A stretch of 12,705 nt of DNA from Acidobacteriaceae bacterium (GTDB lineage: Bacteria > Acidobacteriota > Terriglobia > Terriglobales > Acidobacteriaceae): contig JASHVU010000238.1 of NCBI GenBank assembly GCA_030044455.1, positions 1-12,705 on the forward strand. Direction: 5' to 3'. How positions within the stretch are numbered: the first letter of the stretch is position 1; every line of letters begins with the position of its first letter. Below are positions 1,505-12,348 of this stretch, piece by piece. The translations under genes and the position numbers were made by a program. Below the pieces are notes generated by a model that saw only the letters and a program-made list of their open reading frames with translations, was not told the DNA's origin and did not search any database.

Positions 1505-1668
1505 CTACAGCGATTCTGGGTTGCTAGAGCCAGAAGCGATTGCCGCGAAGTCGCCGCGACACCGGGGCCCCCAGCGAATGATTTGTATTTGCCGGGGTGG
1601 GACAACAAGGAGTCGGCGTCCTCTACCGATCCTCAACAGGACCCACTTACCCAGGAATTGCGTTTGAG
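1505..1668. repeat. dispersed inverted-repeat element, copy C (degenerate, longer)
   Basis: The right end, read on the minus strand, is CTCAAACGCAATTCCTGGG (1668-1650). The left end, CTACAGCGATTCTGGG (1505-1520), has lost one C relative to the family terminus. Next to the right end the minus-strand sequence includes GTCCTGTTGAG and then CTTGTTGTC, matching copy B (GTCCTGTTGAG, then TTTGTTGTC) in the same order and similar spacing. At 164 bp it is longer than the other copies (118-121 bp), so it has either an internal insertion or a differently placed left boundary. It lies between two divergently oriented genes, not at a gene end, and has no coding capacity. The right half is well supported and the left boundary is tentative. 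Confidence 0.6.
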
Positions 1669-1768
1669 GCCTGGTCCCGCTCAGCATTCACTTACGGAAG
1701 CGGCTTGTTCGAGGTTCCCACACACCGCCAAGCAGCCCCGGAGGGTATTCTGCATCCGATAATAGAAA

Positions 1769-1796
1769 GCCGCGCACCCTGGACGGCCTGCGCGGC
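1769..1796 (+). promoter_or_regulatory. leader hairpin upstream of the PF04020-type gene
   Basis: GCCGCGCA at 1769-1776 and TGCGCGGC at 1789-1796 are perfect 8-base complements around a 12-base loop. A GATAAT -10-like hexamer at 1758-1763 would place a transcription start just at the base of this hairpin. No T-run follows, so it is not an intrinsic terminator. A stabilising or regulatory 5' leader is possible; chance is not excluded. Confidence 0.35.
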
Positions 1797-1835
1797 AATC
1801 CATTCTGGCAGTTGGACTCTGAAGGAGAAAGAAAG

Positions 1836-2177
1836 ATGTTAGCTCTGCTGGCTCAATGGCTGCTCAGCGCATTGGCGCTGATCATCGTCTCAAGAATCGT
1901 ACCCGGATTCCACGTTTCAGGCTTCGGACCCGCACTCATTGCGGCGCTGGTCATCGGCCTGCTCAACGCCACCGTGGGACTGTTCCTCAAGATCGTCACC
2001 TTCCCGTTGAGCATCCTCACTCTCGGCCTGTTTCTGCTGGTCATCAATGCGCTGATGATTGAGTTTGCTTCAAGCATTGTGCGCGGGTTTCATGTGCACG
2101 GTTTCTGGCCGGCTTTTTGGGGCGGCGTAGTCCTATCGCTGCTTGGAATGCTGATTCGCGCTGTGTTGAAGGACTAG
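1836..2177 (+). CDS. PF04020-type small membrane protein ('phage holin family', 4 TM)
   Basis: This 113-residue protein consists almost entirely of four hydrophobic segments: about 3-19 (ALLAQWLLSALALIIVS), 29-50, 52-72 and 87-107. Short loops carry the recurring PGFHVSGFGPAL and RGFHVHGFWPAF motifs, an internal duplication typical of the PF04020 family (often annotated 'mycobacterial 4 TMS phage holin' or YvlD-like). The ATG at 1836 is chosen because AAGGAGA lies at 1822-1828 with a 7-base spacer; an upstream in-frame TTG has no such site. Family members are widespread chromosomal inner-membrane proteins of unknown role, so the holin name should not be taken as evidence of phage. The TAG stop (2175-2177) lies inside the terminal motif of repeat copy A. 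Confidence 0.9.
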   Translation: MLALLAQWLLSALALIIVSRIVPGFHVSGFGPALIAALVIGLLNATVGLFLKIVTFPLSILTLGLFLLVINALMIEFASSIVRGFHVHGFWPAFWGGVVLSLLGMLIRAVLKD

Positions 2178-2294
2178 GGCAATTCCTGAGTAGGTATATC
2201 CGTTGGGTGTCCTCGCCGGGTCGAAGTCTCCCTGATGGTCGCGTCGACTTGAAGTGATCGGTTTCGGGCCACAGGGACTCAGGAATTGCTTTAG
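2174..2294. repeat. dispersed inverted-repeat element, copy A (121 bp)
   Basis: Termini CTAGGGCAATTCCTGAG (2174-2190) and the reverse complement of 2278-2294, CTAAAGCAATTCCTGAG, match at 15 of 17 positions; the inner 12 bases are perfect. GTCGCGTCGACT at 2238-2249 recurs in copy B, and CGGTTTCGGGCCACAG at 2259-2274 recurs in copy D with one mismatch at exactly the same distance (85 bp) from the left end. The left edge supplies the TAG stop of the preceding membrane-protein gene. There is no coding capacity, which fits a REP/BIME or MITE-like element. Base pairing of the ends could also form a transcript-end structure. Confidence 0.85.
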
Positions 2295-2415
2295 CTTGAG
2301 CGGATATCGAGGTCCGGATCTGCGACCCTGAGCGTGGCGCAGCCAGTACGCTGCTTTGCGGCCGGCGGGCCAGAGGACTCACGACCGCTCACTCCGGGGT
2401 CGAGTAGGGGCCGGT

Positions 2416-3579
2416 TTAACCTGCCTTTGCGACAAGTGGTGCCGGCTCTGCCTTCGGCCGCGGCAGGCTGGAGTGGAAGATAAATTCTCCGCATCCCAGC
2501 TTCTTAGCCTCATACATTGCTCGATCGGCATCGTGCAGCAGTTGCTCGGGACACGTTCCATCCAGTGGAAATTCGCTGATTCCGATGCTCGCGCTGATTC
2601 TTAATTGGCACGGGCCAAGCTCAAACGGCATATCGATTGCTTCAACGATCCTTTTTGCCACTTGTGCGGCTTCAGCCCGATCGTGCGCTCCGGGAAGCAC
2701 CACCACAAACTCGTCGCCACCGAACCGCGCCACGATATCGCTATCGCGCAAGCAGCATCGCAAACGGCTTGAAACCATCACTAGTAACCTGTCTCCGATG
2801 TCGTGCCCGTAACAATCGTTCACACGCTTGAACCGGTCCAGATCGAGCATCAGCACCGAAATCTGTTCGCTCTTGATTTCCGCGCGGGTAATTGCCTGTC
2901 CGAGCTGCTCGTGCAGGGCTGCACGGTTCAGCAAATCAGTTAATGCGTCGTGCATCGCCATATGGTGCATCTGCAGTTCCGCGCGCCTTCGTTCGGTCAC
3001 ATCCCGTGAAACGCCCATGGTGCCGATAATCCTGCCGTGGCGGTCAATCAGCGGCAACTTGCTGGTCTGAACCCATGTCTCGTGCCCGTCCGGCCAGGTC
3101 TCTTTCTCCTCCTGTCCGATGATCGGACGCCCGGTCTCAAGAATCTTCCGTTCATCCTCCAGAGCCTGTTGCGCATGTTCGGCGGTGAATATATCGGCGT
3201 CGGTCTTGTTGAACAAGTCCGAGTCATTCTGGAAGCCAAAATATCTCACCATTCCCTTGCTCAGGCACAAGAAGCGGCTCTCGCGATCCTTGAAGAAAAC
3301 ATTGTCCGGAATATGGTCGAGCAACGATCTAAATAACGTATGTTCCATGTGCGCGCGCCGTTCGGCAGCAATCTTTAAATAAAGCACCAAGCCGAGCAAC
3401 ACCATCAGGACTGCGGCAGCCACGTTAACCGCCAGAACCATCGCGGGCGAAACGCGCGGTGCAAGCGCAAGCGAAGATCGTGTGCCGATCGCGAAGCCCA
3501 GCAACATCGCCAAAGCAGCGATCGTCATCCCTGAAACTCTGGGAAAACGATGCAATCTCCGCGTCATCTTCATTCCCAA
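2416..3579 (-). CDS. membrane-anchored PAS-GGDEF diguanylate cyclase
   Basis: This enzyme is expected to condense two GTP into cyclic di-GMP at the inner membrane. Two hydrophobic segments (about 17-35 and 46-68) form a minimal N-terminal anchor. A PAS domain follows (about 81-195, with DHIPDNVFFKD, NKTDADIF and the closing GTMGVSRDVTERRRAE). The GGDEF domain (about 208-372) carries DALTDLLNRAAL, DLDRFKRVND, RFGGDEF (287-291) and SIGISEF. All key residues are present, and an RxxD inhibitory site (RDSD, 278-281) sits exactly five residues before GGDEF, so product feedback inhibition is likely. Start: TTG 3579 has AGAGGA 8 bases upstream; ATG 3573 is an alternative two codons inside. The PAS ligand is not predictable. 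The gene stands alone, followed by a non-coding stretch containing repeat A, and its upstream neighbour is on the far side of repeat B. Confidence 0.95.
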   Translation of the reverse strand: MGMKMTRRLHRFPRVSGMTIAALAMLLGFAIGTRSSLALAPRVSPAMVLAVNVAAAVLMVLLGLVLYLKIAAERRAHMEHTLFRSLLDHIPDNVFFKDRESRFLCLSKGMVRYFGFQNDSDLFNKTDADIFTAEHAQQALEDERKILETGRPIIGQEEKETWPDGHETWVQTSKLPLIDRHGRIIGTMGVSRDVTERRRAELQMHHMAMHDALTDLLNRAALHEQLGQAITRAEIKSEQISVLMLDLDRFKRVNDCYGHDIGDRLLVMVSSRLRCCLRDSDIVARFGGDEFVVVLPGAHDRAEAAQVAKRIVEAIDMPFELGPCQLRISASIGISEFPLDGTCPEQLLHDADRAMYEAKKLGCGEFIFHSSLPRPKAEPAPLVAKAG

Positions 3580-3886
3580 GCGGGCGGTCCTCTGCGCGCG
3601 TCTGGTTACAATTCATCGGACAAAAAACGCGGAACTTTACAAAATGTCTCTGGGAATCCGCATTTCCGATGTCTGACGGCGACACCAGAAGATACCCAGG
3701 GCCGGTTGGCCAAACGCCTTACGCACAGGCCCAATCCCCGGCTGGCGTCGGGGTTCAATGTTGAGCCGATGGTTGCTGAGACTGCGGCTTACGGCAATTC
3801 CTGAGCTCGGGTGTCCTGTTGAGCTCTTCACAAGGTCGCCGCTCTTTGTTGTCGCGTCGACTCGGCTGCCTGCTTTTGGGATACAG
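3580..3886. other. 307-bp intergenic region containing repeat copy B
   Basis: This region lies between the diguanylate cyclase start and the end of the anti-sigma gene, both on the minus strand. Its part next to the anti-sigma gene is repeat copy B (3789-3906). The remaining 200 bp should carry the cyclase promoter, but I see no clear -35/-10 pair. Short frames here have no ribosome-binding sites and are not called. Confidence 0.5.
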
Positions 3887-3906
3887 CTACCCAGGAATTG
3901 CGCTCG
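3789..3906. repeat. dispersed inverted-repeat element, copy B (118 bp)
   Basis: The left terminus TTACGGCAATTCCTGAG (3789-3805) and right terminus, read on the minus strand CGAGCGCAATTCCTGGG (3906-3890), share the family core GCAATTCCTGRG. Internal blocks match other copies: GGGTGTCCT near the left end and GTCGCGTCGACT at 3851-3862 recur in copy A; GTCCTGTTGAG recurs in copy C. The right end overlaps the last codons of the anti-sigma gene: its final Ala-Ile-Pro-Gly-stop is encoded by element sequence. It has no open frame of its own worth calling. Confidence 0.8.
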
Positions 3907-4336
3907 TTGCTTTTTTTTGCGCTTTCTTGCGAGCCGGATGCGGCTTGGCCGATTTCGGCTGCAGGCTCACCACGGGTGGCTTGAGCGTCTGCGGGGATCG
4001 CATAGCGCCGGCTCCGGAAAACTCACCCACCGCACCCATCTTTGCCGGCACCGCCGGCGCTTTTGCAGGCTGCCACGGCTGAATGCGGGAATAGACACCC
4101 CAGCCTCCTCCTGCCACAACCATCACAATGGCCGCCGCGGCCGTCGCCCGAACCCAGGCAGCATCAGAACGCAACACAAGCGGCCACGCCAAAACCCGGC
4201 CCTGCCGCGGCGCGGTGTGCAAGGCATCATGCACGCGCTCCTCAAGCCCTTCGGGCGCAGGCAGGCTGGCGATTACCCGCAGCGTGTCTTCTCCTGTGTT
4301 TGCACCGTCCATCGAATTGTGCAGATTCAGATTCAT
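3887..4336 (-). CDS. probable membrane anti-sigma factor (149 aa), partner of the ECF sigma gene
   Basis: The call rests mainly on context: the gene starts at ATG 4336-4334, overlapping the stop of the ECF sigma gene as ATGA, and its ribosome-binding site GGAGG lies in the sigma coding sequence, so the two are translationally coupled. The product has a soluble N-terminal part (about 1-60, with DTLRVIASLPAPEGLEERVHDALHT), one transmembrane helix (about 63-83, TAAAAIVMVVAGGGWGVY) and a Pro/Ala/Lys-rich outer tail of about 65 residues. This topology suits an anti-sigma factor that holds the sigma factor at the membrane. There is no HxxxCxxC zinc-binding motif, so it is not a classic ZAS-type anti-sigma. 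The last codons (AIPG) and the stop come from repeat copy B, so the tail may have been altered by the insertion. A structural membrane protein of the same operon is the alternative. Confidence 0.75.
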   Translation of the reverse strand: MNLNLHNSMDGANTGEDTLRVIASLPAPEGLEERVHDALHTAPRQGRVLAWPLVLRSDAAWVRATAAAAIVMVVAGGGWGVYSRIQPWQPAKAPAVPAKMGAVGEFSGAGAMRSPQTLKPPVVSLQPKSAKPHPARKKAQKKATSAIPG

Positions 4337-4989
4337 TGCCTTTCCTCCTCTGCCGCGGCCGTTTCTGAGGTGCAGCCCGAGGGTTCCAACTCCCTGGTCT
4401 TGGCTCTTGAATGATTCAGCATCCCGGCCATCAGGTTGCGCGCGCGGAAAAGCCTCGACCTTACGCTCGACTCGGTAATGCCCAGCACCGACGCGATCTC
4501 AACGCTGGAAAGCTCGTCGAACGCCGAAAGCATCAGCACCTCGCGCTCCTTGGCCGGCAACTGCTCAACGCAGGCCAGCACCTGGGCGTGATGCTGCGCC
4601 GCGCTCGCCACCTGCTCGGCAGAGAGACCCGAGGAGGGCAGCACGCGCGCCAACTCCGCCACATCATCGGTCTCCGGGCGGGTCTTGGCGCGCCGTTTGC
4701 GGTCAAGAACGATATTCCACACGATGCGGATCAGCCATACCCGGTGATCGCGAACTTCATTCAGCTGGTCACGATGACGCAGCACGCGCAGGAAGGCCTC
4801 CTGCACGGCATCCTCCGCGTCAGCTGGGTTGCGCAATACTGAGAAGGCGACGCGGTAGAGTGCGCCGGCGTACTGATCGACCAGTGCAGCAAGGGCCGCC
4901 TCTTCCGCCTGCTGGCGGACCGCGTTGGCCGCGGCGGTGTCATCAAGGTCCATCCATCCTGCGCAAATGGCCTGAGTGGCGCTCATCAT
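4333..4989 (-). CDS. ECF (RpoE-type) RNA polymerase sigma factor
   Basis: This 218-residue protein has the two-domain layout of group 4 sigma factors. Region 2 (about 36-102) includes LVDQYAGALYRVAFSVLRNPADAEDAVQEAFLRVLRH, the last part being the hallmark of region 2.2, followed by VWLIRIVWNIVLDRKRR (2.3-2.4). Region 4 (about 133-187) includes LPAKEREVLMLSAFDELSSVEIASVLGITESSVRSRLFRAR, with the 4.2 helix-turn-helix. An acidic, Glu/Ala-rich C-terminal tail follows. It directs RNA polymerase to a small regulon, likely for envelope stress given the membrane partners. The start at ATG 4989 lacks a good ribosome-binding site; the in-frame ATG at codon 13 (4953), preceded by AGGATGG, is a credible alternative. 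The TPR gene ends 33 bp upstream (stop at 5023) and the probable anti-sigma overlaps its stop. Confidence 0.95.
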   Translation of the reverse strand: MMSATQAICAGWMDLDDTAAANAVRQQAEEAALAALVDQYAGALYRVAFSVLRNPADAEDAVQEAFLRVLRHRDQLNEVRDHRVWLIRIVWNIVLDRKRRAKTRPETDDVAELARVLPSSGLSAEQVASAAQHHAQVLACVEQLPAKEREVLMLSAFDELSSVEIASVLGITESSVRSRLFRARNLMAGMLNHSRAKTRELEPSGCTSETAAAEEERQ

Positions 4990-5022
4990 GCACCAGACGC
5001 AGGCACGGGGCGAAATGCTCGG

Positions 5023-5730
5023 CTACTGCCCTTTGCCGGAGAGCTTCTGCTCGGCAATGGATGCGGCGGCGCTGTCTTTGTCATTGTCCTTGATTTTGGC
5101 CCAGAGCAGCTTGGCCTGGTCCTGCTTGCCCTCGGCGGCGTAGAGATCGGCGAGGTTTAGTTGGGCGGCCGCGGACGACACGGTATCAGAAGGCTTGGCT
5201 ACCAACTGGTTATAGAGATTAATGGCGTCGTTGTCGCGGCCGATCTGGTGATAAAGTCCGGCCAGCGCCAGCCTGGCCAGGTTGGCGATGTTCCGGTTCC
5301 ACGATCCGGCAGCGGCTTTCAACTCTGTCTCGGCTGGCCCGCTGTGGCCGAGATCGATGTAGGTAACGCCTGCAAAGTAGTGAGCCTTCGAAGCTTGCGG
5401 CAACCCGCTGAAGTTGTGCGCGATGGCCACAAATTCGCGGTTCGCTTCAGTAGCGCGCGCTGCGGCGGTTGTATAGGTGCCGGAGTCGGGCACCCCGGGC
5501 TCAGCCAGCGGTTCCGTATAAACGTCAACGGCGCTTCCCAGCGCCTGGTCGGCGGCCGAGGTGCGCGTATTCCAATAGACGTATCCTGAGACCACCAAAA
5601 CCAGCGCAACGGCCGCGCTGATCACCCAACGGAGGACCATTGAGCGGTTGTCTCCCAGCCAGCTGGCGCTGGTTGCGGCCGCACGGGCGAATTTGTCTTG
5701 CTTCAGGGCGTGACGGGTTTGTGTATCCAC
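5023..5730 (-). CDS. membrane-anchored tetratricopeptide-repeat protein, YfgM-like (235 aa)
   Basis: The protein has a short cytoplasmic N-terminus (VDTQTRHALKQDKF), one transmembrane helix (about 32-53, VLRWVISAAVALVLVVSGYVYW) and an outer region of TPR-like helical repeats, including YFAGVTYIDLGHSGPAETELKAAA, ARLALAGLYHQIGRDNDAINLYNQLV and AAAQLNLADLYAAEGKQDQAKLLW. This is the layout of the PF09976/YfgM ancillary proteins that associate with the Sec translocon or outer-membrane assembly. I choose the GTG at 5730-5728 because conserved-looking sequence begins there; the frame stays open to an ATG-type codon at 5820, but those extra 30 residues look unlike a protein. The family name is by resemblance. 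It is followed at 33 bp by the ECF sigma gene on the same strand, so co-transcription is likely. The opposite gene starts 180 bp away, giving a shared divergent promoter region. Confidence 0.85.
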   Translation of the reverse strand: MDTQTRHALKQDKFARAAATSASWLGDNRSMVLRWVISAAVALVLVVSGYVYWNTRTSAADQALGSAVDVYTEPLAEPGVPDSGTYTTAAARATEANREFVAIAHNFSGLPQASKAHYFAGVTYIDLGHSGPAETELKAAAGSWNRNIANLARLALAGLYHQIGRDNDAINLYNQLVAKPSDTVSSAAAQLNLADLYAAEGKQDQAKLLWAKIKDNDKDSAAASIAEQKLSGKGQ

Positions 5731-5910
5731 TTGTTTCTTATGTCCTTCGCTGATTGACTTGCAGGCGGGGCCGAACTCGGCTGGACCAGACTGGCTAAAG
5801 GCGCTGCGACTGCAACCCAACTAGTTTAACAGCGGGCCGAGGCGAATAGCCAATTTCTGGAGCTTCCTCGTCCACTGTTCACAGTCCACCGTTACTGCTA
5901 CGCTAAACAC

Positions 5911-6288
5911 ATGTACGAAGACTTCCACGTCGCCGATCGCTGGAGCGGAGAAGACATTCATTGCCGCTGGAAGGCCAACATGGTGGCTATTGCCACGCGA
6001 CACGCCGACGCAGTCGATATCCGCTTCGACGTGAACGAACGCCCCATGTGGATCGCGCTGCCATCTACCGCCTGGGTCGAGCAGAAAAAGCGTTCCGGCA
6101 AAGTAATTACCGACCAGCTCGCCGCGCAGGTTGCGGGCCGCTACCTCAAGCAGCTCATTGGAGAGGGTTACGATGCGCGCCGCGAGGTGTATACCATGAC
6201 GGTCGATGAAGTGCTCTCGCACCTCGACGCTGTGGTTGAAGAAGCCAGGTCGCAGGGTGCCATGCCCACATTGCCGGTGCTGACCTGA
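5911..6288 (+). CDS. small conserved-looking protein of unknown function (125 aa)
   Basis: I do not recognise the family. It is a soluble mixed alpha/beta protein without signal peptide or cysteine clusters; the only features are a strand-rich N-terminal half (EDFHVADRWSGEDIHCRW, AVDIRFDVNERPMWIALP) and a helical C-terminal half (ITDQLAAQVAGRYLKQLIGEGYDARREV, TVDEVLSHLDAVVEEAR). The ATG at 5911 has no obvious Shine-Dalgarno sequence in front. It stands 10 bp upstream of the sugar-kinase gene on the same strand, so the two are almost certainly one transcript. It overlaps nothing on the other strand that looks real. Coding statistics (GC-rich third positions) support it. A role connected with the kinase is possible but not shown. 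Confidence 0.75.
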   Translation: MYEDFHVADRWSGEDIHCRWKANMVAIATRHADAVDIRFDVNERPMWIALPSTAWVEQKKRSGKVITDQLAAQVAGRYLKQLIGEGYDARREVYTMTVDEVLSHLDAVVEEARSQGAMPTLPVLT

Positions 6289-6298
6289 TCGCCAGCCG

Positions 6299-7399
6299 AT
6301 GACCTCAGATACGATTCCAGCCCGCGACCTCGGCGAAATTGCGCGCCAGTTTGCCGTCGAAGGCGAATTCTGTCAGGCAGTGCCTTACGGGGGCGGCCAC
6401 ATCAACGAAACCTGGTGCGCCACCTTCAACCGCGCCGACGCACGCGTTCGCGGCATTCTGCAGCGCATCAATCACAATGTCTTTCGCAATCCCGCGGCGC
6501 TGATGGAGAACATCGAACGGGTCACGCAGCACCTTTCAGCGCAATTGGCCAAAGAACCAGACAGAGAACGCCGTGCCCTCACGCTCATTCCCAGTCGCGC
6601 AGGTCGCAACTTGTATGTGGACCCGGGCGGCGGCTACTGGCGCGCATGGCGGTTCATTGAGGGCGCGCGCACCTACGACGCAATTGAATCCGCGCAGCAA
6701 GCCTATGAGGGTCCGCGAGCCTTCGGTCGCTTCCTGGCGATGCTGGCCGATTTGCCGGCGCCGCGGCTTCACGACACTATTCCGAACTTTCATTCCACGC
6801 CCGGGCGCTTCGCGGCTCTCGAAGATGCCATAGCCCACGATACCGCCGGACGCGTGCACCTGGCCGAGCCGGAGATCGCTTTTGCCCACGCGCGTAAATC
6901 CATTACCGGCGCGCTGCTCAATGCCGGCCTGCCCGAGCGCGTTACGCACAACGACACCAAGATCAACAACGTGCTGCTCGATGACCAGACCGGCGAAGGG
7001 ATCTGTGTGATCGACCTCGATACCGTGATGCCCGGCTTTGCCGCTTACGATTTTGGCGATCTGGTCCGGTCGGCCACCTGTCCGGCCGCGGAGGACGAGC
7101 GCGATCTTTCTAAAGTGACCGTGCGTTTTGATCTTTTTGAAGCCCTTGCGCGCGGCTACCTGAGCACGGCCGGAGACATGCTCACACGCGCAGAAAAAGA
7201 GTCTCTGGTCCTGGGCGGAAAACTCATCACCTTCACGATGGGAATCCGATTTCTCACCGATTTTCTGAATGGCGACACCTACTACAAGGTGCATCGCGCC
7301 GACCACAACCTCGACCGTTGCCGCACGCAGTTCAAGCTGGTCGAATCGATCGAAGCGCAGGAAAGCGCGATGGAGCAATTCATTCGATCAATCGGCTGA
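6299..7399 (+). CDS. N-acetylhexosamine 1-kinase-like phosphotransferase (APH fold)
   Basis: The 366-residue protein belongs to the aminoglycoside-phosphotransferase/choline-kinase fold and most resembles the NahK group, which phosphorylates GlcNAc/GalNAc at C1 using ATP. Visible landmarks in order: the nucleotide loop PYGGGHINETW (29-39), QRINHNVFRNP (55-64), the catalytic loop THNDTKINNVL (216-226, Asp219 as base), the metal-binding IDLDTVMPG (238-246), YDFGDLVRSA (250-259), AEDERDL, and the C-terminal GIRFLTDFLNGDTYYKV plus RCRTQFKLV. Length agrees with the family. The distinctive HNDTK and IDLDTVMPG motifs separate it from antibiotic kinases, so drug resistance is unlikely. No phosphorylase or uridylyltransferase gene lies beside it, so the source of the sugar (cell-wall recycling, glycan breakdown) is open. 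It follows a small unknown gene by 10 bp and faces the permease gene with 6 bp between stops. Confidence 0.9.
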   Translation: MTSDTIPARDLGEIARQFAVEGEFCQAVPYGGGHINETWCATFNRADARVRGILQRINHNVFRNPAALMENIERVTQHLSAQLAKEPDRERRALTLIPSRAGRNLYVDPGGGYWRAWRFIEGARTYDAIESAQQAYEGPRAFGRFLAMLADLPAPRLHDTIPNFHSTPGRFAALEDAIAHDTAGRVHLAEPEIAFAHARKSITGALLNAGLPERVTHNDTKINNVLLDDQTGEGICVIDLDTVMPGFAAYDFGDLVRSATCPAAEDERDLSKVTVRFDLFEALARGYLSTAGDMLTRAEKESLVLGGKLITFTMGIRFLTDFLNGDTYYKVHRADHNLDRCRTQFKLVESIEAQESAMEQFIRSIG

Positions 7400-7405
7400 C
7401 CGCAC

Positions 7406-10168
7406 TCACTCGTGCCTGAGCGCTTTCATGGGTTGCACACCCGCGGCGCGACGGGCGGGAATCCAGCTTGCGGCCAGCGCCACGGTCAGCAGAATTAAAA
7501 CTCCGCCAATAATTGTCGTTGGATCCCACGGCTGAATTCCGTAGAGCATTGACTTCACCAGCCGGGCCAACCCAAGGGCTGCGCCGGCGCCGGCCAGAAT
7601 GCCCACTATCGCGAGCCATGTGCTTTCGCGCAATATCATTCCGCGCACCTGGCCGGGTTGAGCGCCGAGCGCAAGGCGAATTCCAATTTCGCTGGTGCGT
7701 TGCGCCACCGTGTAAGCCATAATGCCGTAGATTCCCACGCAGGCCAGCGCAAGGGCCAGCAATCCGAAGCCCGAAGTGAGCGCGGCAAACAAGCGCTCCA
7801 TTTGCAGCGTGGCATCAATCTGCTCTTGTTGCGTGCGAATGTTGATGACGGGCAGGTCGCGGTCTTCCTGTTGTACTAGATGCCGCAGCGAAGGCACGAT
7901 CTGTGAGGGTGAGAACCGGGTGCGGACGGCGTAGGTCATTCCGCCCACTTCGGTTTGCTGCACATAAGGCACCATAAACTGCGGCGGCGCCGGGTCGCGC
8001 AACGTAGCGTAGCGAGTGTCTCCGCAAATGCCCACGATCGTCACCCATCCCTGCTTTGCGTCATCGGTTTTGAAACGAGTCCCGGTCGGGTTGGTGTGCG
8101 GAAATCGTTTCCTGGCCAGTGCTTCATTGATGATGGCGACGCGTTGCGATGTCGCGGTATCCTGCGGGCCAAAGCCGCGGCCGCCTACGATGGGAATGCC
8201 CATGGTTTGAAAGAAGTTGTTCCCAACTATATTCCAGTCTTCGGCGCCGCTGTGGTCGCCATTGTCGGCCGTATTTTCCGGAATGAAATCGTCGTTCGAC
8301 ATGCTGTCAGCGATGTATGCGGTCAAACCCAGCGTCACGCCTTCCACACCGGGCAATGCCGCGAAAGCCTGCTCGAGACGCCGATCCAGTTCGACGTCCT
8401 TGCCCATGCCGTAACGCAGGGCGGGAGGCACGATTTCAAAGAGAATCAGGTGATCCGTTCTGAAGCCAGGATCGATGGAATTGAGCGCGTACAGCGTGCG
8501 CACAAAGAGCCCCGCGACGATCACCAGCAGCGATGACAGCGTAATTTGGAATGCAACAATCGATTTGCCGCTGAGGTTCCGCCGCCGCCGCGTCGAGGTT
8601 TGAGCACTCTCTTTCAAGCTGCTGCTCACTTCGCTGCGCGCGGCGAGCCACGCGGGGATGAGCCCGAAGACCAGTCCCGTCGCAAGCGTAGCCGCCGCGG
8701 CAAAACCAAACACCCGCCAGTCGAAATGGACTTCAAGCGAGATCCGTTGCCAGCGATTGGTCATAAGCATGGGAATCGCGTTGCGCGCGAGGTAGCCGAG
8801 CGCAAGCCCTCCAGTGCCACCAATGCCCGCCAGCAGCAGGCTCTCAGTGAGCAGCTGCCTCAGAATGCGCCCGCGGGTCGCGCCGATTGCCAGCCTTACG
8901 CTCATCTCGCGTTGCCGCTCGGCTCCGCGCGCAAGCGTCAGGTTAGCAATGTTGGCGCATGCCAGCAGCAGCACAAAGCCGGTGAGCGCCATCAGCACAT
9001 ACGACGGCTTTCTGAACATCCCGTCAGCGAGGCGCAGCCCTCGGCTGCCGTCGACCAACACCAGGTGAGGCACGGTTTCATTCGGCTTCACCCGCATGGT
9101 GGCGCGGGTTGCCGACTCCAGCTGCGCCACAAGAATCGCCTGCGCTTGCGCGTCTGTGACTCCGGGTTTGGCTCGTCCCATCACGTTTACCCACCACATC
9201 GTGGAGTCTTCAAGCAGCGAGGTCTTCCCCTTGGGGTCGACGATGGGCTGCATGGTGAGCGGGACAAATATGTCGGGCGAAGCCTGCACACCCTTAGCGC
9301 CTGTGAATCCGCGCGGATTGACGCCCACGATCGTGAACGGAACCTGGTTGATCGTGATGGTCTGGCCGATCACTGAAGGCGACCGCCCATAGGACCGTTC
9401 CCATAACCCCTCACTGATGAGAGCAACGGCTCCCTCACCGTATTTACTTTCGTCCGACGGAGTGATAGGACGGCCCAGCTGCGGTCTCACGCCCAGCACG
9501 GAGTAGTAGTTGCCTGAGACCAACTCGGTCTCAACCTCTTGCGCCACACCGCGTATTGTCGCGTTCATCGCATCCCACTTGAACGCGAACAAGTCTTCGA
9601 GCGACTGGTTGTGGGCACGCAGTTGGAGGTAAACCGGGTAGGAGAAGATTGTGCCCTGCATCCCGCCCTCGGGCGCAGGATCGAAGTCTCCCCACATGCC
9701 GTGCACAGCCGAATCCCCAACCGAATGCCACTTCAACGCGCGCAACTGCTCAGGATGGGGCACACTCAGGCGGTCGTAGAGAACGCTCTTGGTGAGCGAG
9801 AAGATGGCGGTGTTGGCGCCGATGGCGAGCGCCAGTGACACAGCTGCAATGGTGGTGAACCCTGGGCTCTTGCGCAGAATGCGCACGGCGAAGCGCAGAT
9901 CGGCGCAAAGCTCGTCCCACCAGCGCAGGCCGAGCGAGGCGCGCATGTCTTCTTTGGTTTTGAGAGCTGGACCGAGCGCAACACGCGCGCTGCGGGCGGC
10001 TTCTTTTGGCGGGTGGCCGGCGCGGATGAGATCGGCGGTGAGGCGGTCGAGATGGTCCGCGAGCTCGGCTTCGATGTCGGCCTCGAGGCGGCTGCGGTAG
10101 ACGAGCGCGCGGAGCCAGGAAGCAAGCTCTGCTTTCTTGCACATGAAATAGGATTTGGCAGGCGTCAT
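7406..10168 (-). CDS. ADOP-family permease (Acidobacterial Duplicated Orphan Permease), MacB/FtsX type
   Basis: This 920-residue inner-membrane protein has a cytoplasmic prefix (about 25-70, ELADHLDRLTADLIRAG), then two consecutive MacB/FtsX modules. The first starts with the membrane helix GFTTIAAVSLALAIGANTAIFSL (about 103-125), a large outer MacB-type domain, and an FtsX block (about 388-510) with RQREMSVRLAIGATRGRILRQLLTES. The second starts near 540 and ends with the matching RTSEIGIRLALGAQPGQVRGMILRES block and SWIPARRAAGVQPMKALRHE. The tandem modules and absence of an adjacent ATPase gene are the definition of the ADOP family, common in acidobacteria. The start ATG 10168 is chosen because it overlaps the padR stop as ATGA and has GGAG 6 bases upstream; the frame itself is open further. 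Substrate unknown; MacB relatives act in efflux or envelope processes. Controlled by the PadR gene in front. Confidence 0.93.
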   Translation of the reverse strand: MTPAKSYFMCKKAELASWLRALVYRSRLEADIEAELADHLDRLTADLIRAGHPPKEAARSARVALGPALKTKEDMRASLGLRWWDELCADLRFAVRILRKSPGFTTIAAVSLALAIGANTAIFSLTKSVLYDRLSVPHPEQLRALKWHSVGDSAVHGMWGDFDPAPEGGMQGTIFSYPVYLQLRAHNQSLEDLFAFKWDAMNATIRGVAQEVETELVSGNYYSVLGVRPQLGRPITPSDESKYGEGAVALISEGLWERSYGRSPSVIGQTITINQVPFTIVGVNPRGFTGAKGVQASPDIFVPLTMQPIVDPKGKTSLLEDSTMWWVNVMGRAKPGVTDAQAQAILVAQLESATRATMRVKPNETVPHLVLVDGSRGLRLADGMFRKPSYVLMALTGFVLLLACANIANLTLARGAERQREMSVRLAIGATRGRILRQLLTESLLLAGIGGTGGLALGYLARNAIPMLMTNRWQRISLEVHFDWRVFGFAAAATLATGLVFGLIPAWLAARSEVSSSLKESAQTSTRRRRNLSGKSIVAFQITLSSLLVIVAGLFVRTLYALNSIDPGFRTDHLILFEIVPPALRYGMGKDVELDRRLEQAFAALPGVEGVTLGLTAYIADSMSNDDFIPENTADNGDHSGAEDWNIVGNNFFQTMGIPIVGGRGFGPQDTATSQRVAIINEALARKRFPHTNPTGTRFKTDDAKQGWVTIVGICGDTRYATLRDPAPPQFMVPYVQQTEVGGMTYAVRTRFSPSQIVPSLRHLVQQEDRDLPVINIRTQQEQIDATLQMERLFAALTSGFGLLALALACVGIYGIMAYTVAQRTSEIGIRLALGAQPGQVRGMILRESTWLAIVGILAGAGAALGLARLVKSMLYGIQPWDPTTIIGGVLILLTVALAASWIPARRAAGVQPMKALRHE

Positions 10169-10512
10169 ATCTGCTCCGGAGTCGCACTCAAAATGCCATT
10201 GATGATGCCCGACATGCGCTGCCAACGTTCAGTCTCTTCGCCAAGGCGCGCGCGACCCAGGTCGGTGAGGTGGTAGTACTTGGCGTGTCGGTTGTTCTCG
10301 CTCTCGCCCCATTCGCTGGCGATGGCGCCCTGGTGCTCAAGCCGGTAGAGGGCTGGATAAAGCGAGCCCTGCAGAATCACCAGCTCCTCGCCGGAGATCT
10401 GTTGAATCCGCAGCAGAACGCCGTAGCCGTGCAGCGGCCCGAGCGAAACCGCCTTTAGAATGAGCAGGTCGAGGGTTCCCTGGAGGATGTCCTGTTGCTT
10501 GTCTGAAGCCAT
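10165..10512 (-). CDS. PadR-family transcriptional regulator, acidobacterial ADOP-linked type
   Basis: This 115-residue protein is a winged-helix repressor of the PadR family. The signature runs from residue 8 (DILQGTLDLLILKAVSLGPLHGYGVLLRI), through the recognition region (ELVILQGSLYPALYRLEHQGAIASEWGES), to the wing (NRHAKYYHLTDLGRARL). A short C-terminal helix (EETERWQRMSGIINGIL) would mediate dimerisation; it is shorter than in long PadR proteins, as usual for the acidobacterial subfamily that precedes ADOP permeases. AGGAGA sits 8 bases before the ATG. The stop overlaps the permease start as ATGA, so both are made from one message. A 37-bp inverted repeat overlapping the promoter (10559-10595) is the likely operator, implying autorepression relieved by an unknown ligand, possibly a toxic compound. 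Confidence 0.95.
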   Translation of the reverse strand: MASDKQQDILQGTLDLLILKAVSLGPLHGYGVLLRIQQISGEELVILQGSLYPALYRLEHQGAIASEWGESENNRHAKYYHLTDLGRARLGEETERWQRMSGIINGILSATPEQI

Positions 10513-10558
10513 GATGGAGTCTCCTGTCGGGCTTTCTGAGGTCGGGCACTTCCCTAGT

Positions 10559-10595
10559 CAATCTAGGAGGAGTTTAGTACAACTCTCCTAGATTG
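10559..10595. promoter_or_regulatory. probable PadR operator (inverted repeat)
   Basis: CAATCTAGGAGGAGTT at 10559-10574 and AACTCTCCTAGATTG at 10581-10595 are inverted complements around the centre TAGTAC. The outer 11 bases pair perfectly and the only defect is one extra G in the left arm. The repeat covers the spacer and -10 region of the padR promoter, so a dimer bound there would block RNA polymerase. Binding by this PadR is inferred from position. Confidence 0.75.
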
Positions 10596-10599
10596 TCAA
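10571..10599 (-). promoter_or_regulatory. sigma-70-type promoter of the padR-permease operon
   Basis: On the minus strand TTGACA (10599-10594, perfect -35) is followed after exactly 17 bases by TAAACT (10576-10571, 4 of 6 matches to the -10 consensus). Transcription would start near 10564, leaving about a 50-base leader before the padR ATG at 10512. The operator inverted repeat overlaps it. Confidence 0.7.
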
Positions 10600-10663
10600 G
10601 GAGAGAAGGTCGACGAATTTACGGGATGGGCCTACTTTTGGGAGATTCGCCCCTGAGGAGAGG

Positions 10664-11968
10664 TTAGGGCTTGAGCGCGAAGGTCATGCAGTGTCTTCCG
10701 GTCTCCTCGCACTGAAGCATATCTTCGGCGAGCATGTTCCAGCCTACAAATCCGGCAAACTTACCGCCAGGCGACTGCGCAGGCGTGGGTGCGAGGCCGA
10801 GGCCGGTTTCGGCGTCGTAGTCCTCGTGCATCGAGCCCCACTTGGCAATGTCGTTGCGCAGGATGGTTGCCAGCGAGCCGGCCAGCCAATTTGCGTCGAC
10901 GTTGAATCCGTAGCGGCGAAGCGCCAGCCAGTCAAGATAGTTGGCGTTGATCCAGATGGGCCCGCGCCAGTTGGAGTAGGGATCGATAATGGCCTCGTTG
11001 TTGTATACGGGATCGCTTTTAGCAACGCTGCGAAAGCCGTAGGGCGAGCGCATCTCGGCCGGGTTGAGCAGGTGCATGCGAACCATGCGCGCGCCTTCGG
11101 TCTGGGGCAAAAGGCCAAAGGCGAGCGGAACAAAACTCGACCAAGTGATCGACGGCATCCATGCGCCGGTGTCGCGGCGTCGGTTGAGGAATAGAGCCGT
11201 ATCCGCGCGCCAGAGATGTTTCATGATTGCTTTGCGTGTGGCGTCAGCTTCGCGATCATACTGCGCTGCGAGTGAGTTGTCGTCAAGATGTCGGGCGATG
11301 ACCGCCATGGCCTGATACTCGCGCATGGCCCACACCGAAGCGTCGACGGCGAGAATGGCGCTGCGGTCGTTTGGATCGTTGCTGAGCGCGGGGCTGTTGT
11401 CGGCACCCGACTGCAAGCCATTGTCCCAGAACCAGAGATTCCACTTTGCATCGAACTGCGTCTTCTTCCGGTATTCGAGAATACGCTGCATGGCCGGCCA
11501 AACCGGGCGGATCCACTTGTAGTCGCCGAGCTTCTGGGCGGCGAGTACGGCTCCCTGCGCAAGAAAAGGCTTCATGGCAAATTTGCCGAAGAACGGCCGC
11601 GGGCCTTTGGACGTAATGCATCCGGCCACGTAGCCATCGGCGTCTGCGGAGGAGGCAAAGCTCAACACCCAGTCGCGCAAATACTTTGCGTCGGCAGTGT
11701 TTTGGTTGGCCCAGTGCGAGCCAATAAAAAATCCGTCCCAGTCCCACATCTGCGGGTAGTAGCCGGCGGGAATGAGATACGGGTAGTGAATGTAGCCGTC
11801 TGCGGGCCGGATAGTTTGCGGCGCGAGGCGATCGAAGTCGGCGGTAAGCCCGGCGAGAAGTCCCGGGCTGGCCGGCGATGATGGGCTAGTCGGCTGCTGC
11901 GAGCGGGAAACCGCTGAGGCGCAGAGGAATGTGAGAAGCGCGGTGACGAAGATGCGTAAAGTGGGCAC
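10664..11968 (-). CDS. secreted MGH1-like / GH63-type glycoside hydrolase
   Basis: Residues 1-23 form a signal peptide (LRIFVTALLTFLCASAVSRS), so the enzyme is exported. The rest is an (alpha/alpha)6-barrel hydrolase of the GH63/GH37 clan, close to the mannosylglycerate-hydrolase-like (MGH1) group. Landmarks: YYPQMWDWDGFFIGSHW (70-86), WFWDNGLQSGADNSPAL (179-195) with Asp190 as the likely general acid (compare SGMDNSP in characterised members), YSNWRGPIWINANYL (331-345), and GSMHEDYDAETG (378-389) with Glu382 as the likely general base. Both catalytic residues are therefore present, and the barrel appears complete at 434 residues. Substrate is uncertain: alpha-mannosyl or alpha-glucosyl glycosides, mannosylglycerate/glucosylglycerate or trehalose-like sugars are all possible. 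It is transcribed in the same direction as padR, and its stop lies 151 bp upstream of the padR start, with the padR promoter between. Confidence 0.9.
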   Translation of the reverse strand: MPTLRIFVTALLTFLCASAVSRSQQPTSPSSPASPGLLAGLTADFDRLAPQTIRPADGYIHYPYLIPAGYYPQMWDWDGFFIGSHWANQNTADAKYLRDWVLSFASSADADGYVAGCITSKGPRPFFGKFAMKPFLAQGAVLAAQKLGDYKWIRPVWPAMQRILEYRKKTQFDAKWNLWFWDNGLQSGADNSPALSNDPNDRSAILAVDASVWAMREYQAMAVIARHLDDNSLAAQYDREADATRKAIMKHLWRADTALFLNRRRDTGAWMPSITWSSFVPLAFGLLPQTEGARMVRMHLLNPAEMRSPYGFRSVAKSDPVYNNEAIIDPYSNWRGPIWINANYLDWLALRRYGFNVDANWLAGSLATILRNDIAKWGSMHEDYDAETGLGLAPTPAQSPGGKFAGFVGWNMLAEDMLQCEETGRHCMTFALKP

Positions 11969-11991
11969 GAAGCGAGGATAATACCGGAACC

Positions 11992-12231
11992 TTGGCGTCC
12001 CTTAGTGAGTCTACCTGGGAAAGTATCAAACAACCCGGAGCGTACATCGAGAGAGAGACTGGCCACCTTTACCGGGTCCCGCCCGAGGCGCTGCTTCGCG
12101 GAAGCTCTCCCTTGATCTCGAAGCTCTGCAACAACCCGTCAACGTTCGTCAAGCTCAGCGATGATCCCAACGCGATTGTTTCAAAGCTGCGGACCATTGC
12201 CGCGGATGCGGACGTCAAACCCAATTTCTAG
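11992..12231 (+). CDS. small protein of unknown function (79 aa)
   Basis: This short soluble protein begins LSESTWESIKQPGAYIERETG and continues with LYRVPPEALLRGSSPLI, FVKLSDDPNAIVSKLRTIAADADVKPNF. The pattern (a W/Y-containing N-terminus followed by a 'RVPPEAL' turn and a helical C-terminus) looks like a conserved acidobacterial family of unknown function, but I cannot name it. No ATG is available; TTG at 11992 is the only reasonable start. A GATAAT -10-like hexamer at 11977-11982 lies so close that the message may be almost leaderless. It is divergent from the glycoside hydrolase gene, 23 bp away. The TAG stop (12229-12231) lies in the left terminus of repeat copy D. Confidence 0.65.
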   Translation: MASLSESTWESIKQPGAYIERETGHLYRVPPEALLRGSSPLISKLCNNPSTFVKLSDDPNAIVSKLRTIAADADVKPNF

Positions 12232-12348
12232 AGCGATTCCTCAGTTGTTGTAGCCGTTTCCAGCCTCGGTGAAGGGTGGATTTTTCTTAAGGAAAAATCC
12301 ACTTGACCGCTGCGGTTTCGGGACACAGTAACTGAGGAACCGCTGTAG
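12228..12348. repeat. dispersed inverted-repeat element, copy D (121 bp)
   Basis: The termini CTAGAGCGATTCCTCAGTT (12228-12246) and, read on the minus strand, CTACAGCGGTTCCTCAGTT (12348-12330) agree at 17 of 19 positions. Length is 121 bp, identical to copy A, and CGGTTTCGGGACACAG (12313-12328) sits 85 bp from the left end, as in copy A, with one mismatch. The core is a perfect 11-bp hairpin at 12276-12302. The left edge provides the stop codon of the preceding small gene. It is not coding. Confidence 0.85.
12276..12302. repeat. central hairpin of repeat copy D
   Basis: GTGGATTTTTC (12276-12286) and GAAAAATCCAC (12292-12302) are perfect 11-base complements around a 5-base loop TTAAG. It sits near the middle of element D and has no counterpart of the same sequence in copies A-C. 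The A/T-rich stem has T-runs on both strands, so it could end transcription from either side. Confidence 0.7.

Follow-up and report, generated by a model that had tools for sequence, protein, structure and literature searches.

How do short non-coding inverted repeats come to be scattered between the genes of an acidobacterium, and what moves them? The question is raised by a 12,705-nucleotide stretch (the window) of contig JASHVU010000238.1 (Acidobacteriaceae bacterium, assembly GCA_030044455.1), which carries four intergenic inverted repeats, here called elements A to D. A first-pass annotation of the window had proposed a dispersed family lacking coding capacity and moved in trans, by a repetitive extragenic palindrome (REP)-associated tyrosine transposase (RAYT) or by an insertion sequence (IS) with the same ends. 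Our analysis supports a dispersed, non-coding inverted-repeat family of this kind, most probably of miniature inverted-repeat transposable elements (MITEs) of IS630 type that resemble RUP, ERIC and Correia elements in form.

All four elements were recovered where they had been predicted. Model R1, built from alignment A2 of 26 copies, placed A at 1505-1666 (minus strand; 71.9 bits, E 2.6e-17), B at 2174-2294 (plus; 101.6 bits, E 1.5e-25), C at 3789-3906 (plus; 106.8 bits, E 5.4e-27) and D at 12228-12348 (plus; 84.5 bits, E 8.2e-21). As these four copies belong to the training set, their scores do not count as independent evidence; shuffling, BLAST and motif counts are independent. The sequence GCAATTCCTGAG, which is the arm type of both B (121 bp) and C (118 bp), occurred eight times in the window at up to two mismatches, whereas 200 shuffles averaged 1.43 and never reached eight. 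BLAST with element B returned 24 places in the genome, the query included, and the arms of C were also identified independently of BLAST. The motif YTANNGCAWTTYCTGAGT occurred 38 times in the genome, its reversed control never. As first noted, B and D are each 121 bp long with CGGTTTCGGGNCACAG 85 bp from the left end, and inspection by eye agreed that the elements encode nothing. The terminal consensus first proposed matches only some copies; there are further arm types, such as GCGATTCCTCAG and GCGGTTCCTCAG in D, and A is a 162-bp long form, enlarged at the apex by an insert of about 42 nt. One terminal TA of A, as seen in the alignment, and the right terminal TA of C have decayed.

The suspicion that the family is an artefact of alignment by eye is countered by this motif count above shuffles and by a scan of the whole genome, which was assembled from a metagenome into 813 contigs (4.72 Mb, 76.5% complete). 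R1 gave at least 133 matches at E<=1, and a broader model, R2, built from alignment A4 of 83 copies, gave at least 139 at E<=0.01, many places being counted on both strands; scoring covered 150 of 1333 (R1) and 150 of 1512 (R2) first-look candidates, making these values lower bounds. The union of both models, 105 places plus 23 further ones, amounts to at least 128 places, including four flank-sharing pairs that resemble assembly duplicates or strain variants, some copies truncated at contig ends and two weak ones (E 0.008 and 0.049). The scan thus supports somewhat more than 100 copies, as a lower bound, rather than the hundreds per genome first suggested. Setting aside 11 cut, weak, divergent or duplicate places from the 105 left 94 full copies, and A4 holds these minus another 11, eight of which are long forms.

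The element family is lineage-restricted and diverse. R1 matched 14 of 21 genomes, namely its own, all 12 same-genus relatives and one of eight from other genera of the order. The relatives had 1-25 matches each with both strands counted, those in G008 and G009 being weak, with poorly pairing arms. Under stricter filters, R2 matched three of 151 genomes taken from throughout the class: its own, the same-genus G029 (24 matches from 24 candidates scored) and G107, from another genus of the family (12 matches). Under these filters the same-genus G123 gave no R2 match.

Inward from each end, an element begins with Y and TA, followed by two positions free to vary, GC, a variable arm some 11 bp long, TGTRTCC (mirrored as GGATACA) and a central hairpin. 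In B, the left arm (2174-2191, plus strand; CTA-GG-GC-arm by pattern match) spans 18 nt and is 89% complementary to the right arm (2277-2294, minus strand), which was recognized by complementarity and pattern match. The central hairpin is either GTCGCCG..CGTCGAC-like or perfect, for example GTGGATTTTTC-TTGAG-GAAAAATCCAC. Element D has this other kind, at 12276-12302 (plus strand), where sequence and fold give an 11-bp stem of GTGGATTTTTC and GAAAAATCCAC around a TTAAG loop. Perfect central hairpins of at least 8 bp were present in 31 of 142 copies, with 10 distinct arm strings, some of them overlapping. Two length classes occur: 86 of the full copies measure 116-121 bp, and eight, enlarged by an apical insert, measure 161-167 bp. 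The relative G004 also has long copies, in which the insert looks similar. The longest copy seen, of 242 bp, lies at 85-326 of locus L130.

Pairing of the arms is strongly maintained. Paired cells make up 93.7% of A4, falling to 35-47% with the partner slid, and covariation was 0.532 compared with at most 0.145 for slid and 0.196 for shuffled partners. Two-sided changes affected 321 cells, against 102 after shuffling, and were present in 17 of 21 pairs (shuffled mean 15.1, with 37 of 500 shuffles reaching 17). Seven arm types in our own grouping cover 92 of the 94 full copies; two of these types are distinguished by one arm position alone. Arms vary between subfamilies yet remain paired, and are symmetric whatever their sequence.

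Such covariation, in outer and central stems alike, might be expected of a cis-acting structured RNA (a regulatory hairpin or one at the 3' end of an mRNA) that transcript-level selection maintains, mobility being secondary. Folding is compatible with that idea: in five copies, both strands fold more favourably than almost every shuffled sequence (z -2.1 to -10.2; -7.6 and -8.6 for the two strands of D), with C the least clear (4 and 6 of 200 shuffles equally good). Mismatches tell against it. In the outer stem, G-T (G-U in RNA) and A-C mismatches numbered 40 and 33, with 12 and 7 in 41 copies from relatives, and in the central stem 22 and 19, one fixed G-T pair being set aside. Because G-U shows no excess over A-C in either stem, no strand is favoured, and because the two kinds are about equally frequent, outer-stem pairing appears to be maintained at the DNA level, as expected if double-stranded DNA is read from either end. 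An excess of G-T is seen in the looser middle stretch (83 to 34), 38 of the G-T mismatches coming from one pair. Rfam covariance models matched no element in the window or at 20 further element loci. On these data, and those on gene ends and orthologous loci below, a primary role as RNA is quite unlikely.

Paired change could also arise by mutation, with no enzyme involved, if template switching during replication copied one arm onto the other. Template switching has been reported for RNA hairpins, in what is available of PMC8794818, and would explain the outer arms, and possibly the central hairpin, without selection. Against it, pairing stays imperfect in the region that joins outer and central stems, and in G029 all 20 fetched copies have slightly varying forms of a single arm type, which flanks one interior in 11 copies and another in 9 (our count). 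Two further half-sites in that genome have a different arm, GCAAAACCAGAGA. We consider template switching a rather unlikely source of the pairing, also in view of the arms of IS630 relatives described below.

The insertion site points to a transposase that targets TA. Of the full copies, 69 begin with YTA and 61 end with TAR, and 50 have TA at both ends. In those 50, the adjoining letter is the same on both sides in 11 copies looking outward and in 11 looking inward, about the chance level, and the duplication is therefore of TA only. At locus L072, two elements of different subfamilies lie head to tail (777-894 and 891-1009) with one ATAG common to both.

Elements avoid gene interiors and can sit exactly at stop codons. 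Called genes contain none of the 105 places, as against 228 of 515 YTAR sites of the same loci. Seventeen gene 3' ends are overlapped, 15 of them by exactly 4 nt with the element end forming the stop codon (13 TAA or TAG, two TGA); these 15 gene ends sit at 14 elements, and the probability that chance alone would put 15 of 17 in a single frame out of three is 4e-6. Element B is an example: the upstream gene (1836-2177, plus strand; 113 residues as called, 1812-2177 in the open reading frame (ORF) list) ends in a TAG at 2175-2177 (plus strand) composed of the target TA and the first base of the element, and its end lies within one residue of the orthologue ends in all five relatives with a match. 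Special targeting of stop codons is not claimed, the comparison of 15 of 105 places with 27 of 287 intergenic-plus-stop YTAR sites giving P 0.07. The gene caller was home-made and some called genes are short and weak (the one before D is barely over the cut-off), and a gene-breaking insertion could pass for a gene end. That concern is weakened by the exact 4-nt overlaps, by the close agreement in end position between B's gene and its orthologues, and by the gene length kept, as judged by eye, at locus L134.

Locus L134 comes from the comparison of orthologous loci that the first-pass annotation had suggested. There, the gene orthologous to window gene 586-1446 carries an element at its stop codon. 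Judged by eye, the stop lies equally far from the last conserved block in both genes, giving a filled and an empty site at species level. The comparison was anchored on genes, named relatives being only about 70% alike in nucleotides. R1 found an element in one (L134) of nine named loci related to gene 586-1446, the nine being uncultured assemblies labelled Acidobacteria, Acidobacteriota or Acidobacteriaceae plus one Terracidiphilus. This difference in presence at an orthologous locus argues against an RNA kept by transcript selection; in favour of such an RNA, elements lie closer to 3' than to 5' gene ends (medians 63 nt, n=101, and 185 nt, n=68).

Two other repeats adjoin elements: repeat X (up to about 380 bp, copies 68-97% alike) at L027, L121, L127, L006 and L074, and repeat Y (about 290-360 bp, 75-87% alike) at L010, L079, L094, L102 and L108. 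Both were considered as possible target copies, and no clean filled and empty pair was obtained.

Which enzyme, then, moves the family? Hairpin form invites comparison with REP or BIME-type elements, moved on single-stranded hairpins by a RAYT or an IS200/IS605-type HUH enzyme, and Y1_Tnp genes are indeed common (35 matches in 12 of 13 genomes searched, two in the own genome). The 20 of these 35 loci examined, both own-genome ones included, showed no element or end at E<1, and RAYT as mobilizer found no support there. IS200/IS605 types are not known to make a target duplication, in contrast to the TA at both ends of 50 copies. REPs, moreover, measure 20-40 bp in the portion available of PMC3733652, far from the 116-121 bp of most elements. 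A single-strand enzyme of this type is thus highly improbable. Nor did DDE_Tnp_1 (PF01609) partners have element ends alongside, L236 showing a single weak half-end (E 0.24).

Screening of 29 and then 23 more transposase loci with element-end models singled out three (L229, L231 and L232), all fragments of one IS630 in the same-genus genome G011. On these three contigs the same end, YTAGAGCATTATCACACTAGCTGTACCC, lies directly behind the transposase C-terminus and stop codon, with three different outer flanks. The transposase fragment scored 30.8 bits with Pfam DDE_3 (cut-off 28.6) and E 5.6e-9 with the NCBIfam IS630 model, below the full-length cut-off because it is a fragment. The predicted IS with the same ends finds support in altered form: a same-genus IS630 has a like end architecture and subterminal motif and a different arm sequence. 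No IS bearing those precise 17-bp ends turned up in 13 genomes searched by arm pattern, where pairable matches lay about 120 bp apart.

IS630 relatives on viral contigs and plasmids show a like organization. Of 58 relatives on viral contigs, 34 were examined for ends and 24 left out; 26 of the 34 have an inverted repeat of at least 18/30 and eight do not. TANAGC stands at both ends in 21 of these 26 (L255-L257 showing identical ends) and in all five plasmid relatives. Behind TANAGC, the arms are alike within an IS and different between ISs, although they lie about 1 kb apart, a distance over which hairpin copying by template switching would hardly maintain them. The outer arms of the elements follow this pattern too, and recognition by IS630-group transposases would account for their covariation. 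The elements share with IS630-family ISs having YTA-nAGC ends the end architecture, TA target and arm symmetry; the ISs differ in carrying a transposase gene and in measuring 1.0-1.06 kb where measured (TAGAGC ends).

Several observations weigh against an IS630 origin. Of 14 consensus element ends, seven have the G011 IS end as their closest IS match, at 15-20 of 30 letters, a level also reached by 0.08-0.5% of background TA sites; half-element models scored no better than E 0.03-0.05 at that end, and the second end of the IS was not recovered. We found no IS carrying the arm sequence of any element subfamily. The own genome, which is incomplete, has two DDE_3 genes, neither with element ends, and no DDE_3 gene was found in the element-bearing G001, G002, G004, G006, G007, G008, G010 and G107, some of them incomplete; confidence in the reading is slightly lowered on that account. 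G029 has 66 matching half-sites and, by eye, no pair at IS distance. Finally, a covarying central hairpin is not predicted by an IS630 origin. An IS630-family IS does occur in the own genome (L148, contig C13), with inverted ends TAGTCTCCTGAGTCAT matching at 16 of 20 positions and unlike the element ends. It was considered as a parent and dropped, CCTGAGTCA resembling one subfamily but lying 4 nt out of place.

If IS630 transposases are the movers, a transposase would bind matching arms at both element ends, cut beside the terminal TA and paste the element into a TA, mostly in YTAR context, which would be duplicated. IS630 elements insert into TA and duplicate it, as described in the accessible part of PMC2170065, where a preference for CTAG appears in the title of a cited reference. 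At a TAA or TAG stop, insertion into its TA would leave these two letters followed by an element base, and the stop would survive where that base is A or G. Such survival, with selection against hits in genes, may have left elements between genes and in stop codons, and subfamilies with different arms would be followers of different IS630 transposases.

Comparison with known families was by form alone and goes as far as the available excerpts of the cited sources. RUP of Streptococcus pneumoniae is an IS630-Spn1-associated MITE of 107 bp with 108 copies and a TA target (PMC2229807, PMC3049150). The present elements are like it in size, copy number, TA target, lack of coding capacity, folding and IS630-like ends. 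Unlike RUP, they have several arm types per genome and a covarying central hairpin, and the like-ended IS comes from a sister genome and differs in arm sequence. ERIC (IRU, RU-1) elements of enterobacteria, at 127 bp, are near equal in size with end-to-end pairing and TA at the ends, but have a terminal inverted repeat (TIR) with seven contiguous pairs (PMC2229807), compared with about 13, with compensatory variation, here. Correia (NEMIS) elements of Neisseria measure about 107 and 155 bp with a TIR of 24 bp (PMC2229807). They too have TA ends and short and long forms set apart by an internal stretch. The Correia TIR is one conserved sequence, unlike arms that change between subfamilies. No acidobacterial family of such elements was found in the literature searched, a scope beyond which most subscription papers lie; the part of PMC5900883 available treats transposable elements in general. 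TA-targeting palindromic MITEs with IS630-like ends are a known kind, and the present family seems to be new.

Arms and interiors are combined differently among genomes. A single arm type stands on two interiors in G029, and arm type tracks interior in G004 (six and seven of 17 copies, with four others). One tentative idea, which we think possible though not probable, is that these MITEs are modular and re-tooled: the interior, including a selected central hairpin, would be kept long while both arms are exchanged jointly to follow the present IS630 transposase, so that populations outlive successive mobilizers and switch to new ones. With several arm types, few interiors and a dozen related genomes, many showing no IS630 gene, the family provides a natural data set on how non-autonomous elements persist after loss of their mobilizer, and on arm-transposase matching and arm exchange. 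It also illustrates that TA-targeting elements can occupy stop codons without truncating the gene, and yields a model for annotating repeats that Rfam did not flag in this soil lineage. Elsewhere in the window, 7406-10512 holds a large ORF that we take, by eye, to resemble an ABC-type permease, beside a small regulator-sized ORF.

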